A stretch of 64,000 nucleotides of DNA from the NCBI RefSeq assembly GCF_014200605.1, contig NZ_JACHCE010000012.1:66283-130282 (forward strand), written 5' to 3'. Positions 807 to 21,959 of this stretch are shown in pieces; the first letter of the stretch is position 1, and each line of letters starts with the position of its first letter. This stretch comes from Pedobacter cryoconitis. GTDB lineage: Bacteria > Bacteroidota > Bacteroidia > Sphingobacteriales > Sphingobacteriaceae. The notes under the pieces were generated by a model. The model made no database searches, was not told the DNA's origin, and saw nothing but the letters and a program-made list of their open reading frames with translations. A program made the translations under genes and the position numbers.

Positions 807-1902
807 TTAATCTTTATATGGAAAATACCGCTGCCATTTTCAGGGCGTATATTTATCTGCAATGGCCAGTTCCAGTAACTCCTTAAAGATACTTTCACCA
901 TTGTCACTGTTAGTCATGATGAGTATACCAGTTCCGGATTTTGGAAAATTATAACATAATGCCGAAACCCATCACCATGGCCTTCTTTAAAAGCCCCCCA
1001 GCCATATGGTGATTTTAAAAGTCCAAAACCTAGTCCACAACTTAATTGAATTGCATCATTTGCAATGGTGTCCCGGGTTGACAGAGGCCCCATTTGCTCT
1101 ACAGAACGAATACGGATCTGCGGGCTGAACACCTCATTAGTGTATTTGCTGTTGATAATTTTCTTTTGCATTACACCTTGAAAAAAAAGAGATAAATCAT
1201 CTAAAGAAGTTTCGAGTGTACTTGCCGATCGTGCTTCATTATCTTTATCTTTCTCGTAAATCCCGCCCTTTTCATCGTGTCCCAAACTATAATCCTGTTC
1301 AAAAGAAGGAAGGAATGTATAAGCGGTATCTGCAATACTCTTAATTTCTGATCAGCCATATCCCATCTCCAGTTGGCAAAACCTGTGGTATGATCGAGAC
1401 ACATTCTTGCAGTAATTTTTGTATACAATGTATCACCTTTAAGGCTGCTAAAGTCATCGTGCCACCTTTTCTGATGTTTGTATTCATAAATTGGCTTTGG
1501 AAGATATTGCTGCAAGGGTTTATCCAGATCTAATTTACCCTGCTCAACTAGTTTCATCACCAGAACAGCAAAAACAGATTTACTTAAAGAAGCTCAGTAA
1601 ATATTCGTAGTTGACTTCAATGCTTTTTTCTGATCCGCACGACTATATCCAAAAGTTTCTTTATAGACGATATGATTCTGATTGAAAATAGTCATTCCTA
1701 ATCCGGCAACTTTACCTTTACGCATCAGTTCAGGAAGATATTTAGTAAGGGAGTCGGAACTGATTTTAGTTCCATCGATCCTTTTGATCGACTGCTGAGC
1801 TGAGGATTTTGCAACAGCCATAAAAAGCAATAGGCAAACTACAAATGAGAAACAAAACAGATAATTACTTTTCTGAGAAACAGAGACAACATTAAGTTTC
1901 AT
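807..1902 (-). pseudogene. Serine hydrolase / class C beta-lactamase family pseudogene
   Basis: Read on the minus strand from ATG at 1902, this was a secreted serine hydrolase of the beta-lactamase/PBP4-like family (signal peptide ending near SSAQQ, then PELMRKGKVAGLGM, the SxxK box as SLSK, HTTGFANWRW, GHDEKGG and HGDG). It is broken in several places. An in-frame TGA at 1594-1596 falls where W is expected, just before ASLSK. A frameshift near 1335-1350 joins MADQKLR to EIKSIADTAYTFLP in another frame; relatives have about 40-50 more residues here including the second active-site motif, so this is probably a deletion. A second frameshift lies near 938. A second TGA at 840-842 replaces W in the terminal TPWKWQRYFPYKD. 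Surviving short reading frames are remnants. Confidence 0.88.
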
Positions 1903-2054
1903 AACAAACTGATTTACATTTGAATACAAGACAAACACAACATCAATTTGTTACTCTCTTACAATTTGTTAATAATTTTCATGTATAAGTATCAGCAAGG
2001 TCATGAATTAATTATTTCATCATTACACAAGCTTATTGAAACATAACATAATGA

Positions 2055-3134: not shown

Positions 3135-3596
3135 ATGGCATTTACTCCTACAGCATTAAATTTACCGCACCACCCTTTCAGAATAACAGAGAAGGAAGAG
3201 CAGTACTTTATTTTTGATGAAATACGTAAGAAACATCTGGTTTTAACCCCGGAAGAGTGGGTAAGACAACATTTTATACATTATCTTATCAAAGTTAAGA
3301 AGTTCCCAAGATCTTTGATACAGATTGAAGGCGGACTGAATTTAAATCAGTTACAGAAACGGACTGATATCGTTATTTTTAATACGCTTGGAGAAAGAGT
3401 TATGGTCATAGAATGTAAAGCTCCGGCGATTAAGATTTCTCAAGGGGTATTTGATCAGGCAGCAAGATATAATTCGGTACATAAGGCGAAATGGCTGGTG
3501 GTGACGAATGGGTTGAAACATTGTTACGCGGTTATCAACCACGCTACTTCACAATTCTTGTTTGTTGAAGAATTGCCAGAGTATAGGTTGTTATAA
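3135..3596 (+). CDS. Type I restriction enzyme R-like N-terminal domain protein (HsdR_N_2-like)
   Basis: This 153-residue protein is a stand-alone copy of the nuclease-like domain found at the N-terminus of type I restriction subunits. The PD-(D/E)xK pattern can be read: D in KRTDIVIF near residue 79 and ExK in VMVIECKAP near residue 95. FIHYLIKVKKFP upstream is also typical. There is no helicase, HsdM or HsdS gene nearby, so restriction activity is not implied. It is divergent from holA and followed by a strong hairpin terminator. Its cellular role is unknown; a repair or RNA-processing nuclease is possible. Confidence 0.85.
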   Translation: MAFTPTALNLPHHPFRITEKEEQYFIFDEIRKKHLVLTPEEWVRQHFIHYLIKVKKFPRSLIQIEGGLNLNQLQKRTDIVIFNTLGERVMVIECKAPAIKISQGVFDQAARYNSVHKAKWLVVTNGLKHCYAVINHATSQFLFVEELPEYRLL

Positions 3597-3669
3597 AAAA
3601 TGCTGCAAGCTTTAGACTGGCCAAGACCTGAAGTGGTCTTGGATGTCTTCAAGCTTGGCATTTTTTTTA
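3595..3669 (+). terminator. Imperfect long hairpin terminator
   Basis: AAAAAATGC and AAGCTT on the left pair with AAGCTTGGCATTTTTTTT on the right, and GGCCAAGACC pairs with GGTCTTGG around a short loop. A run of eight T follows. It lies directly behind the HsdR-N-domain gene. Confidence 0.8.
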
Positions 3670-3864
3670 TAACCCCAAAGGTATACCCCCAGAAAAAACC
3701 TTCAATACCAAGATTTGCTCATCCGCGAAACCTTTGCAGATGTCTATTAGAAGATGTTTATTTGAATAATGTATAATTGTAAAAACCCACAGCTGGAAAA
3801 ATGCAGGCTGAAAAAATTATAGTTAAAATCCCATTGCTGGAGAAATTATAGTTGTTTAACCATA

Positions 3865-4040
3865 TTCTAAAACACATAGCTAAATACCCACTATATGCGA
3901 ACACATATTCCCAAAAATTCATACACTAAAACCTACAGCAGGAAAATTACATTCTAAAACACATAGCTCAATACCTACTCTATCCGAACAAATATTCCCA
4001 AAATTTTATGGATCAGAACCTACAGCCTGAAAACCATACG
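3865..4040. repeat. Degenerate 88-bp tandem repeat, two copies
   Basis: Copy one starts TTCTAAAACACATAGCT at 3865 and copy two starts with the same 17 bases at 3953. The copies share ATATTCCCAAAA and AACCTACAGC blocks and agree at about four fifths of positions by eye. A diverged third start (CTAAAACTCACA) follows at 4041 and an older relative (AACCCACAGCTGGAAAA) precedes at about 3784. Confidence 0.8.
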
Positions 4041-4184
4041 CTAAAACTCACATTAGAAATTGCAATTATTTTTTCCAAAAGTTCTGCGTTTTAATCAGCA
4101 TGATTGTATGTGATAATCAGAATCCGATTGCAAATAATTGAACGGTCTCCCAGCTGTTATTTATTGTATTTGTCATAAGATATA

Positions 4185-4240
4185 TAGATATTCTTATACA
4201 TAGATATTTTTTACACATAGATATCCTGACATATAGATAT
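4185..4240. repeat. Four TAGATAT boxes spaced 16-17 bp
   Basis: TAGATAT starts at 4185, 4201, 4218 and 4234, giving steps of 16, 17 and 16 bases. Surrounding bases are only loosely conserved, so this is a periodic box array rather than a clean satellite. Confidence 0.7.
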
Positions 4241-4647
4241 TATCATATATCAGAAACTCAGCCACACTGATACTTATACATCTGGACATCTTAACACAAA
4301 AACAACACATTTATATATACTGATATCTATATGTAAATATATTCGAGAGTTAATAACCGTGTCTATAATGTCTTAACGATTATTACATAACAGACAAATG
4401 TAAATATACATAAGCACCAATATGTCTATATTTAAATATGCCTAGATATATCTACATAATCAAACCAGATGTCTATATATAAATAATCACTATTAAATAC
4501 AGGTCCATCAGTAGTGAAATATTTTGAATCTTCGATATAAATATATCTATATACAAATCAATAAATATATCTGGATGTAAATGAATAAATACATTTCTTA
4601 TATCAAACGGGGTACACAACAATCAGCAAAAGAAATATAAATATATA

Positions 4648-4690
4648 TTTGCATATTGATATCATTATAATATAGATATCAATATGCAAA
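4648..4690. repeat. Perfect 16-bp inverted repeat
   Basis: TTTGCATATTGATATC (4648-4663) is exactly complementary to GATATCAATATGCAAA (4675-4690) around an 11-base AT loop. There is no T-run, and no gene on either side close enough to be terminated. Confidence 0.85.
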
Positions 4691-4928
4691 ACTAAAATAA
4701 AACCATAAAATACTAATTAACTGTGCTTTATAAAACAAGAAATAAACATATATAGATAACTAGATATCTAAACATCTGATAAACACATCCAATCTGCTCC
4801 CTGCCCCAACCCACAAGCTGGATGCTAAAACCTAATTGATGATCTAATAATGATCCAAAAGAAAAGCCAGATCATATAAGCTCTGGATGATCATTATCCC
4901 AGGTCAGATTTCGAAAACAGGAAAGCTT

Positions 4929-5007
4929 AAAAAAGAGGAAGGGGCGGTTTACATGCATCAGTTGCTCTTCGCAACGTCAGCATGTAAACCGCCCCTTCCT
5001 CTTTTTT
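4929..5007 (-). terminator. 28-bp perfect hairpin terminator behind valS
   Basis: Arms 4929-4956 and 4980-5007 are perfectly complementary, with A-runs and T-runs at the outer ends, so it can terminate both directions. The 23-base loop holds its own hairpin GTTGC-TCTTC-GCAAC (4961-4975). It begins inside the valS stop codon. Confidence 0.9.
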
Positions 5008-7679
5008 TACAAACTGAGAAGAGACTCCTGGATAATCGTCATCTTCGCTTCTGCATCTGCTTTTTTATTGCGTTCATTCTGGATAATCTCTGGTTTAGCA
5101 TTCTGCACAAACCTTTCGTTATTTAGTTTCGCATCTACAGATTTCAAGAACCCCTGCAAATAAACAAGTTCCCCATTCAATCTTTCGCGCTCTGCTTCTA
5201 CATCTATTGTTTCGTTCAGCTGTACAAAGAATTCATCATTTCCTACCATAAATGCAGAGGCACCGGCTACTTTATCATTCACAAAGTCAACTTCAGTGAT
5301 ATTGGCAAGTTTAGAAATAATTGTAAGCCATTTATCATAAGCTAAAGCAGAATTAACTCTGATACTTAAAGGCAATCCTTCTTTGGGAGAAATCTGTTTA
5401 GTGTTACGGATATTACGTACTTCAGCAACAATTCCTTTAACCACTTCAACATCCTTCAATAAGGATGAATCAGCAGTTCCGACTACCGGATAAGGAGCTA
5501 CAATAATACAGTCCATTTCCCCTTTTGTTCCGAATATTTCATCATGCCATAATTCTTCTGTAATGAATGGCATAAATGGATGTAATAAACTCAGGATTTT
5601 TTCAAAGAAACCAATCGTCGCTTTCAACGAGACAGGATCTATTGGATGCTGGTAAACAGGTTTTACCATTTCCAGATACCAGGCACAGAAATCATCCCAT
5701 ACCAATTTATAAGTAGTCATTAAAGCTTCTGATAGACGGTACTGGTTATAGTTATCTTCAATTTCAGCTAATGCCTCATTGAAACGGTTTTCAAACCATA
5801 AAATAGCCTGCTCATTAGGATTTGATAAAGTCTCATCAACTTCCCAGCCTTTTACCAGACGGAAAGCATTCCAGATTTTATTGGCAAAGTTTCTTCCCTG
5901 CTCACAGTAGCTCTCATCAAACATCAAATCGTTACCGGCAGGTGAACATAGCAACATACCTACCCTTACACCGTCAGCACCATATTTCTCAATCAAACCG
6001 ATTGGATCAGGAGAGTTACCTAATGATTTAGACATTTTACGGCCTAATTTATCACGTACGATACCAGTCAGGTATACATTAGTGAATGGCTTTTTACCCA
6101 TAAATTCATGGCCTGCCATAATCATACGGGCCACCCAGAAGAATAAAATTTCAGGAGCTGTTACCAGGTCATTTGTAGGGTAATAATAATTGATGTCTTT
6201 ATTTCCAGGGTCTTTTAAGCCATTGAATACTGATATTGGCCATAACCATGACGAGAACCAGGTATCCAGTACGTCATCATCCTGTCTGATAAAAGCTGCC
6301 AGCTGATGTTTAAATCCATTAGCTTCTTCTTGAGAGAATTTACCATCAATATCTTTAAGCTTTAAAAATTCATTTAAAGCATCTTCTTTGGTTTTTGCAA
6401 CTACCCAGTCTCCTTTATCATCAAACCAGGCCGGAATACGCTGTCCCCACCATAATTGACGACTGATATTCCAGTCTCTTACATTTTCCATCCAGTGACG
6501 GTAGGTATTCACAAATTTCTCAGGAATAAGTTTCACATCACCATTCAAGACATCAGCTAAAGCAGGTTTAGCCATTTCGTCCATTTTACAGAACCATTGT
6601 AAGGAAAGCTTAGGCTCAATTGCCGCATCAGTACGCTCAGAGAATCCTACCTGTGATTTGTAGTCTTCTACTTTTTCCAGATGACCAGCCTCGTCCAGTA
6701 AAACAGCTATTTTTTTACGGGCAATAAAACGGTCTTCACCTACCAGAATTACAGCAAGCTCATTTAAAGTACCGTCATCATTTAAGATGTCAATCACAGG
6801 GAGTTTATGTTTTACACCCAGCTCATAATCATTCAGATCATGCGCAGGCGTAACTTTTAAACAACCTGTACCGAAATCCATGGTTACATATTCGTCTTCA
6901 ATGATCGGAATTTCACGGTTGATTAAAGGAACAAATACTTTTTTCCCTTTCAGATGTGTATAACGCTCATCATTTGGATTAATACAAATCGCCGCATCAG
7001 CCATAATGGTTTCAGGACGGGTCGTTGCAATAGTTAAAAATTCTGTATCGGCACCTGTAGCAGGAGCAATAGAATATTTAATATAATATAATTTCTGATT
7101 GACTTCTTTACGAATTACTTCTTCGTCCGAAACTGCAGTTTTACCTGCAGGGTCCCAGTTAACCATGCGCACTCCACGATAGATTCTTCCTTTTTTATAA
7201 AGATCTATAAAGCAGTCTATTACTGATTCTGAAAGGTCATCTTCCATCGTGAAACGTGTCCTGTCCCAGTCGCAGCTTGCGCCCAGTTTTTTCAGCTGAT
7301 CAAGGATGATACCTCCGTATTTCTCTTTCCACTCCCATGCATAGGTCATGAATTCTTCTCTTGTCAGATCTTTTTTACTGATGCCTCTTTCTTTCAGCAT
7401 AGCAACTACCTTAGCTTCTGTAGCAATAGAAGCATGGTCAGTCCCAGGAACCCAGCATGCATTTTTACCTTGCATACGTGCACGGCGAATCATGACATCC
7501 TGAATCGTATTGTTAAGCATATGGCCCATATGTAATACACCAGTGACATTTGGTGGAGGAATTACAATTGTATATGGCTCACGTTCATCTGGTTCAGAAT
7601 GAAAGAACTTTTTTGACAGCCAGTAGCTGTACCACTTGTCTTCGGTTTCGGCGGGATCGTATTTAGTAGAAATGCTCAT
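5007..7679 (-). CDS. valS: Valine--tRNA ligase
   Basis: ValRS charges tRNA-Val. The 890-residue protein has the class I signatures: HIGH as HMGH at residues 50-53 after PPPNVTG, and KMSKS at 548-552. The editing (CP1) domain lies between, with WDP near 175 and TTRPETIMAD near 219-228. A C-terminal coiled coil (residues about 815-890, LNGELVYLQGFLKSVDAKL) is typical of bacterial ValRS. A TATTTTTG box (minus, 7702-7709) ends 22 bases before the start. The transcript ends in an unusually long hairpin overlapping the stop codon. Confidence 0.98.
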   Translation of the reverse strand: MSISTKYDPAETEDKWYSYWLSKKFFHSEPDEREPYTIVIPPPNVTGVLHMGHMLNNTIQDVMIRRARMQGKNACWVPGTDHASIATEAKVVAMLKERGISKKDLTREEFMTYAWEWKEKYGGIILDQLKKLGASCDWDRTRFTMEDDLSESVIDCFIDLYKKGRIYRGVRMVNWDPAGKTAVSDEEVIRKEVNQKLYYIKYSIAPATGADTEFLTIATTRPETIMADAAICINPNDERYTHLKGKKVFVPLINREIPIIEDEYVTMDFGTGCLKVTPAHDLNDYELGVKHKLPVIDILNDDGTLNELAVILVGEDRFIARKKIAVLLDEAGHLEKVEDYKSQVGFSERTDAAIEPKLSLQWFCKMDEMAKPALADVLNGDVKLIPEKFVNTYRHWMENVRDWNISRQLWWGQRIPAWFDDKGDWVVAKTKEDALNEFLKLKDIDGKFSQEEANGFKHQLAAFIRQDDDVLDTWFSSWLWPISVFNGLKDPGNKDINYYYPTNDLVTAPEILFFWVARMIMAGHEFMGKKPFTNVYLTGIVRDKLGRKMSKSLGNSPDPIGLIEKYGADGVRVGMLLCSPAGNDLMFDESYCEQGRNFANKIWNAFRLVKGWEVDETLSNPNEQAILWFENRFNEALAEIEDNYNQYRLSEALMTTYKLVWDDFCAWYLEMVKPVYQHPIDPVSLKATIGFFEKILSLLHPFMPFITEELWHDEIFGTKGEMDCIIVAPYPVVGTADSSLLKDVEVVKGIVAEVRNIRNTKQISPKEGLPLSIRVNSALAYDKWLTIISKLANITEVDFVNDKVAGASAFMVGNDEFFVQLNETIDVEAERERLNGELVYLQGFLKSVDAKLNNERFVQNAKPEIIQNERNKKADAEAKMTIIQESLLSL

Positions 7680-21888: not shown

Positions 21889-21959
21889 ATAATTTACAGT
21901 CCATAAAAATAGGGGTGCCTTCCAGGAAGGCACCCCTATTTTTATGGACTGTAAATTAT
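21889..21959. terminator. 33-bp perfect bidirectional hairpin
   Basis: Arms 21889-21921 and 21927-21959 are exactly complementary around CCAGG. It fills the gap between two convergent genes and contains AAAAAT and ATTTTT tracts mid-stem. Confidence 0.88.

Follow-up and report, generated by a model that had tools for sequence, protein, structure and literature searches.

The organisation of a bacterial chromosome by an RHH protein is known from MatP/matS, and SegB likewise has an RHH fold; MatP/matS and CdbA are not known to have a ParA partner and act at dispersed sites. In the partition systems of type Ib plasmids, the repeats ahead of the operon, direct as well as inverted, are bound by a small RHH protein that is also the repressor of this operon and that activates ParA through an arginine finger in its flexible N-terminus (PMC5016525). 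The passages used on pSM19035 describe seven-bp repeats that function in different orientations, with at least four contiguous repeats needed (PMC9499535), and those on SegB of the Sulfolobales describe binding sites near segAB and others scattered over the chromosome (PMC12284271). A 2016 review states that chromosomal partition in bacteria relies in all cases on centromere-binding proteins of the HTH kind (PMC5002424).

Our analysis concerns an AT-rich gap beside valS in Pedobacter cryoconitis. The window, by which we mean the whole stretch of 64,000 nucleotides that was analysed, is one stretch of a 6.2-Mb genome (G000) and contains a dense array of short boxes at 4171-4795. Judging from the sequence, we consider it probable, at roughly 60%, that this array is a centromere-like set of binding sites, remote from parA, that belongs to a type-Ib-like chromosomal cassette encoding a ParA and an RHH-like protein.

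The array occupies part of a gap between two converging genes (Table 1), one with an HSDR_N_2 domain, which is found in 141 of the 145 genomes of the genus, and valS, whose C-terminal part is found in 142 of them. The original prediction had described 3673-4928 as a single gene-free, repeat-built AT island with a terminator on either side, and much of this picture held. The reading frames in it are merely 58, 54 and 49 aa long (a 79-aa frame begins at 4887 and crosses the terminator into antisense valS), GC content falls to 22-24%, a terminator-like hairpin stands at each border, and the boxes of opposite orientation are there in the array. Other elements needed correction. The interval is ordered, as claimed, but it is composite rather than one island, boxes filling only the array proper; the decayed tandem repeat exists, but with a period of 87 bp, not 88, and copies that are 80% alike; and the inverted repeat said to be perfect is so in its outer 16 nt, but its 21-nt arms match at 90%. 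The predicted phasing of the TAGATAT boxes survives in the regular steps of four of them, but not as helical phasing at 10.5 bp, of which the array shows none; its spacing excess at 17 is 0.186 (null sd 0.058).

Table 1. Features of the valS gap and its borders (window positions; 7-mer counts are of 41 TAGATAT-like 7-mers with one mismatch allowed).
Feature	Position	Strand	Basis
HSDR_N_2 domain gene, left border, converges on valS	3135-3596	+	Pfam PF13588, E 3.3e-36
Terminator-like hairpin and T run 3' of the HSDR_N_2 gene	3597-3669	+	Inverted repeat 3592-3603/3658-3669, read in the letters
Box-poor spacer with decayed 87-bp tandem repeat (3858-4047)	3673-4170	.	4/41 TAGATAT-like 7-mers
Box array, both orientations; candidate centromere-like binding array for the ParA-linked RHH-like protein	4171-4795	.	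37/41 TAGATAT-like 7-mers
Four TAGATAT boxes at steps of 16, 17 and 16 (starts 4185, 4201, 4218, 4234)	4185-4240	+	Tandem repeat of period 16
24-bp tandem repeat with two ATATCTR boxes	4537-4591	-	Repeat and box search
AT-rich inverted repeat with GATATC in each arm	4648-4690	.	Repeat search and reading of the letters
Box-free spacer left of the valS terminator	4796-4928	.	0/41 TAGATAT-like 7-mers
Bidirectional valS terminator hairpin, 37-nt arms	4929-5007	.	Conserved; compensatory changes
valS, right border	5007-7679	-	Pfam PF00133, E 1e-124

The array stands out clearly from its own genome. We counted 16 AGAYAT/ATRTCT cores in it, whereas 1000 dinucleotide shuffles lead to an expectation of 3.3 (sd 1.8) and never yielded more than 11, and in 464 kb of G000, window included, the box score was 16 per 300 nt inside the island and at most 7 outside it. 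Since the 99 AT-rich windows (GC below 28%) outside the island in this sample average 1.0 box words, with a maximum of 4, as against up to 16 in the island, the array is no by-product of AT content. Five box-like words trained elsewhere (see below) peak at 10 per 300 nt inside the island, with no more than 4 in any of the 34,012 other windows of a sample of 864 kb (14% of the 6.2-Mb genome, window included), and no other array nearly as dense was found in these 864 kb. A mobile palindromic element, one of the origins first suggested for the island, found no support in G000: the sampled DNA has no other such array, a search of the genome for another copy of the segment found none, and neither this search nor the 864 kb contained the many genomic copies of a dispersed repeat (REP/BIME/MITE-like). 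The best off-locus DNA match (C1:1057401, E 0.014) was rejected as a copy because its surroundings are without box clusters. A mobile palindrome family or ordinary terminators were likewise rejected as an explanation, as only 4 of 50 hairpins in the 464 kb hold a core word.

We compared the same gap in eleven relatives, in eight of which both border genes occur together (in G034, G093 and G139, valS lay outside the stretch used in this comparison). Box arrays occupy it in five sister species, G013, G014, G015, G042 and G127, with gaps of 503-2512 nt. The comparison of the holA-valS interval in close strains that had been proposed as a check thus favoured the original prediction, and the result that would have counted against it, close relatives with no shared boxes, is not what was found. 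The same 8-mers rank top across the six arrays, and GATATCTA occurs 21 times where 0.5 are expected. The interval itself varies in length between 60 nt and 2.5 kb and can take up insertions, such as the transposase genes in the gap of G014. It measures 60 and 66 nt in G095 and G115, with no array in G095, and in G016, a close relative without the small gene of the cassette, it is filled by other genes and again has no array. A separate observation concerns G013, in the whole genome of which AGATATC occurs 217 times, compared with 1055-1200 times in five sister species. As the reversed control is normal, G013 probably has a GATATC-specific restriction-modification system; its valS array (L052) contains no GATATC and has kept three AGACATC boxes.

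Array bases are 66-79% identical between species, compared with 71-77% at the fourfold sites of valS (four species), and this divergence at about the fourfold-site rate means that single array positions show no constraint. Such a pattern would be expected if the array were neutral debris, that is, if an AT-rich bidirectional terminator hairpin behind valS, itself made of the box words, had multiplied and been rearranged through slippage and inverted duplication and were now decaying, its likeness to the flank of parA (see below) reflecting shared hairpin ancestry or convergence without any binding. The same explanation is helped by the single hairpins of array words, followed by a T run, that stand right behind valS in G139 and G115 (among the 30 genomes nearest by valS), by a short variant stretch at this place in G113, by solitary same-word hairpins between convergent genes elsewhere, by the tandem copies of 16-17, 24 and 87 bp, and by the absence of an array from G095 and G016. 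Nor do the words change clearly more slowly than the bases: conservation was 0.85 for aligned and on average 0.81 for permuted words, which is not significant (21% of the 72 usable of 1000 permuted sets were as high). Identical 8-mers are found at 2.2-7.2 times the shuffle level between distant sister species (seven species pairs) and at 2.3-10.4 times within single arrays, a range that covers the between-species values. Neutral debris thus accounts for drift at the base level, changes in length and absences. It accounts less well for the survival of words across species that agree at only 44-59% of their valS fourfold sites, and box words are not clearly more frequent in hairpins at large: with a laxer hairpin cut, words per kb in hairpins and in comparison DNA were 1.69 and 1.35 in G000 (62 hairpins), 1.46 and 1.26 in G095 (56 hairpins), and 0 and 1.29 in G115 (37 hairpins). 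The description of the gap as neutral decayed DNA, which the original prediction had kept in reserve, may hold for single bases, which change at about the synonymous rate, but fails in its other part, an absence of shared boxes.

The alignment of five species also bears on a non-coding RNA or cis-regulatory RNA locus, another of the options first put forward and one that we regard as highly improbable. The right end of the gap does carry a strong terminator, and 14 base pairs show two-sided changes, but nine of these are in the valS terminator, where at least one sequence has changed on both sides of each pair with pairing kept. The remaining five fall in two short helices of the array, both of them broken in some of the five sequences. 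The boxes, moreover, occur in both orientations, and all 14 Rfam matches score below half of the gathering score of their family.

The DNA of the relatives was searched with a sequence-only model of the valS array, and in G095 a dense stretch of boxes lies directly upstream of a parA gene, which is followed by a small gene and then by more boxes. In G000 this cassette is on another contig than the array (G000:C1:330734-331736), with the small gene at 330734-330988. The gene for the small protein (85 aa) is present in 28 of the 145 genomes of the genus (E 0.001; two only 35-51% identical), including all six with a valS array, and absent from G016; in all 28 it is free of inner stops and parA stands 6-8 nt ahead of it. 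The ParA protein has 247 aa and matches AAA_31 from residue 1 (G095 protein), that is, it is a short Walker-type ParA without an N-terminal HTH, and its PDB profile matches to ParA/Soj proteins start at residue 2-3. Its reading frame is open in ten of ten genomes tested. In 17 pairs among these ten genomes, the identity of ParA is 88-98%, compared with 33-59% at fourfold sites, which points to purifying selection. The small protein combines an almost invariant N-terminus and a variable linker with a C-terminal part that is RHH_10-like: RHH_10 is matched by 18 of the 21 members, with a best E of 1.2e-4, and the matches to further RHH families are weak. The G000 protein itself matches RHH_10 weakly (E 0.078, 13.7 bits, cut-off 27) and gave no match in NCBIfam at E 0.1; a Pfam search at E 0.1 with the G095 protein gave none either, and the six PDB profile matches of the small protein include no solved RHH structure and no SegB.

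Within 150 nt of parA, TATCATTG is found in 28 of 28 genomes and a core box in 27. At least six words per 200 nt are found upstream of parA in 14 of the 28 (ten in G095), and one to four in the six genomes with a valS array (three in G000 itself). The dense array is thus at valS in six cassette genomes, at parA in 14 and at neither place in eight, in which we found single boxes, short stretches or none.

The words at the two loci match. EM motif finding collapsed onto TATATA, and enriched words were used in its place: from 15 genomes other than the six, we took the 20 7-mers with the strongest enrichment upstream of parA, chosen independently of the valS arrays; some of them seem to stem from genes upstream of parA in several genomes, and the five box-like ones were used alone in the 864-kb scan described above. 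All 20 together reach 33.8 per kb in the island (4151-4800), which is 16 times the 2.15 per kb of the genome sample; the controls gave 2.1 per kb in 33 AT-rich windows and 3.9 per kb (maximum 15.4) in shuffles, and the other five valS arrays 34-44 per kb. AGATATC, AGATGTC, AGACATC and ATATCTA, which rank top at parA, have z scores of 18.6, 13.9, 11.4 and 13.4 in the valS arrays of the five relatives, compared with -0.9 to 0.9 in AT-rich control windows, and the word-enrichment profiles of parA and valS correlate at 0.20 and 0.30, as against 0.05-0.07 with AT-rich controls.

Array and cassette also tend to occur together. Among the 30 genomes nearest by valS, at least six words per 200 nt stand behind valS in 9 of the 19 with the small gene and in none of the 11 without it (p 0.011, kinship ignored); when the six full valS arrays alone are counted, p is 0.061, kinship again ignored. 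The valS site is not required in every species, since 10 of the 19 cassette genomes, G095, G034, G093 and G100 among them, have at most four words per 200 nt behind valS. The palindrome TATAGATATCTATA has 26 sites in 23 of the 145 genomes, compared with nine sites in nine genomes for its reversed control. Ten of its 11 intergenic sites (one of the 11, in G088, under a 119-aa frame judged spurious) and 6 of its 15 sites in genes belong to cassette genomes (p 0.014, kinship ignored). Counted by genome, and with kinship ignored throughout, intergenic sites are found in 9 of 28 cassette genomes and 1 of 117 others (p 1e-6), in 7 of 28 and 1 of 117 once the two sites inside the valS arrays of G014 and G015 are set aside (p 4e-5), and in 6 of 28 when the G139 terminator is removed as well (p 2e-4). 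That 10 of the 11 intergenic palindromes fall in cassette-bearing genomes is, like the persistence of the words, less well explained by neutral debris, which we regard as unlikely although far from negligible.

Pairs of genes related to parA and the small gene are carried by four Pedobacter and Mucilaginibacter plasmids (of 72,556 searched; 44-63% identity), in all of which the small gene is directly behind parA and GATATC stands ahead of parA. The Pedobacter plasmid, pA27BH1 (about 63.5 kb), has further word-rich stretches with maxima of 6 and 8 words per 200 nt, the first of them 1.7-2.5 kb from the cassette. On this plasmid a box cluster lies directly ahead of another small gene (L365:13450-13650). 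Family-wide, the small gene occurs in 13 of 301 genomes (E 1e-4), six of them outside the genus, and a search of viral contigs and phages found no relative of the small protein. On the chromosome the neighbours of the cassette in three genomes are ordinary genes (SusC/SusD-like, EamA and histidine kinase; eight proteins scanned, one of them matchless). The cassette has the appearance of a partition module of plasmid origin that settled on the chromosome of a Pedobacter lineage. The plasmid relatives lend some plausibility to an array that is bound by the RHH-like protein and yet is no centromere, serving either as a decoy that sets the level of free repressor or as an incompatibility site that makes newly entering plasmids unstable if their partition system is the same. 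Type Ib centromere-binding proteins double as repressors, according to the sections cited (PMC5016525), and parS mimics on SGI1 destabilise a helper plasmid, as stated in the part of the source used here (PMC10954446). The chromosomal cassette, though, is intact and conserved, which would be needless for a pure incompatibility site, and we consider this explanation rather improbable.

Among the described systems, the cassette is most readily likened to those of type Ib (TP228 parFGH, pSM19035 delta/omega/parS and pCXC100), which resemble it in having a short ParA with a small partner, in Pedobacter RHH-like by its better profile matches, directly behind it, and AT-rich upstream repeats, which are dense in 14 of the 28 cassette genomes; in the plasmid systems these repeats, too, can be both direct and inverted and present at several sites (PMC5016525, PMC9499535). 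Unlike the plasmid systems, the Pedobacter cassette is chromosomal and lies among ordinary genes, with the array of the window's clade away from the cassette genes in the valS gap, and unlike in pSM19035 the boxes of the island are not contiguous. Archaeal SegAB, as presented in the passages used, is similar in pairing a chromosomal ParA-type protein with a DNA-binding partner and in having sites upstream of its genes and elsewhere (PMC12284271); most SegB sites are intragenic, whereas the Pedobacter boxes are intergenic and dense. As far as the account of CdbA used here goes, it resembles our proposal in being an RHH protein that organises a bacterial chromosome. Canonical ParABS has in common with the cassette a protein of the ParA family and a cis-acting site, but its partner is an HTH ParB, while that of the Pedobacter cassette is RHH-like and an HTH ParB is encoded separately. 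This canonical ParB (TIGR00180) was matched once in each of the three genomes tested, apart from both site and cassette (G000:C14, G014 at 5.69 Mb and G042 at 4.42 Mb), so that in these three genomes no HTH ParB gene stands next to either.

Of the options in the original prediction, we favour a protein-binding or chromosome-organising site, because the boxes recur beside the ParA and RHH-like cassette and are shared by five sister species. We read the array as centromere-like in trans on account of its type Ib style, with boxes that are short, AT-rich, in both orientations, dense and without helical phasing. The AGAYAT/ATRTCT boxes, whichever way they point, would be occupied by dimers of the RHH-like protein, which would form a row along the array. 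Through its nearly invariant N-terminal tail, this protein would touch ParA and raise the ATPase activity of ParA. Nucleoid-bound ParA might then exert a pull on this chromosomal region or keep it in place, in the way that type Ib systems act on plasmids. The dense array, which in the window's clade would take this role at the valS gap instead of upstream of parA, suggests a further site by which the chromosome might be attached when it is moved or positioned. In its widest form, the proposal is of a second, RHH-based chromosomal partition system, derived from a plasmid, that would work beside ParABS with its main centromere moved behind a housekeeping gene, as a counterpart of archaeal SegAB; we advance this more tentatively, at somewhat short of even odds.

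The top-ranked titles and abstracts of the literature describe no such array or cassette in Pedobacter. If the boxes are bound and acted on, they would provide, in a cultivable non-model phylum, a counter-example to chromosomal partition by HTH proteins only. The proposal, if true, would also show a route by which a plasmid partition module joins a chromosome; with cassette and array at separate loci, it would make the turnover of a centromere traceable across some 28 species, and it would give one kind of gene-free AT-rich gap a testable function.

Markers of the replication origin and terminus disagree with one another, namely the three DnaA-type genes per genome, the position of ParB and GC skew (15 stretches of G014). 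G000, G014, G042 and G127 each have three Bac_DnaA genes above the cut-off. Two hairpins, L101:19479-19528 and L099:16203-16241, carry TTATCCACA in both arms, which we take to resemble paired DnaA boxes. Elsewhere in the window, a gene for a protein of the beta-lactamase fold at 914-1938 (minus strand) seems to be split over several short frames (1201-1560 scanned) and is possibly a pseudogene, and the top-scoring hairpin of the whole 464-kb sample, with perfect arms of 34 nt, lies at 21889-21959.
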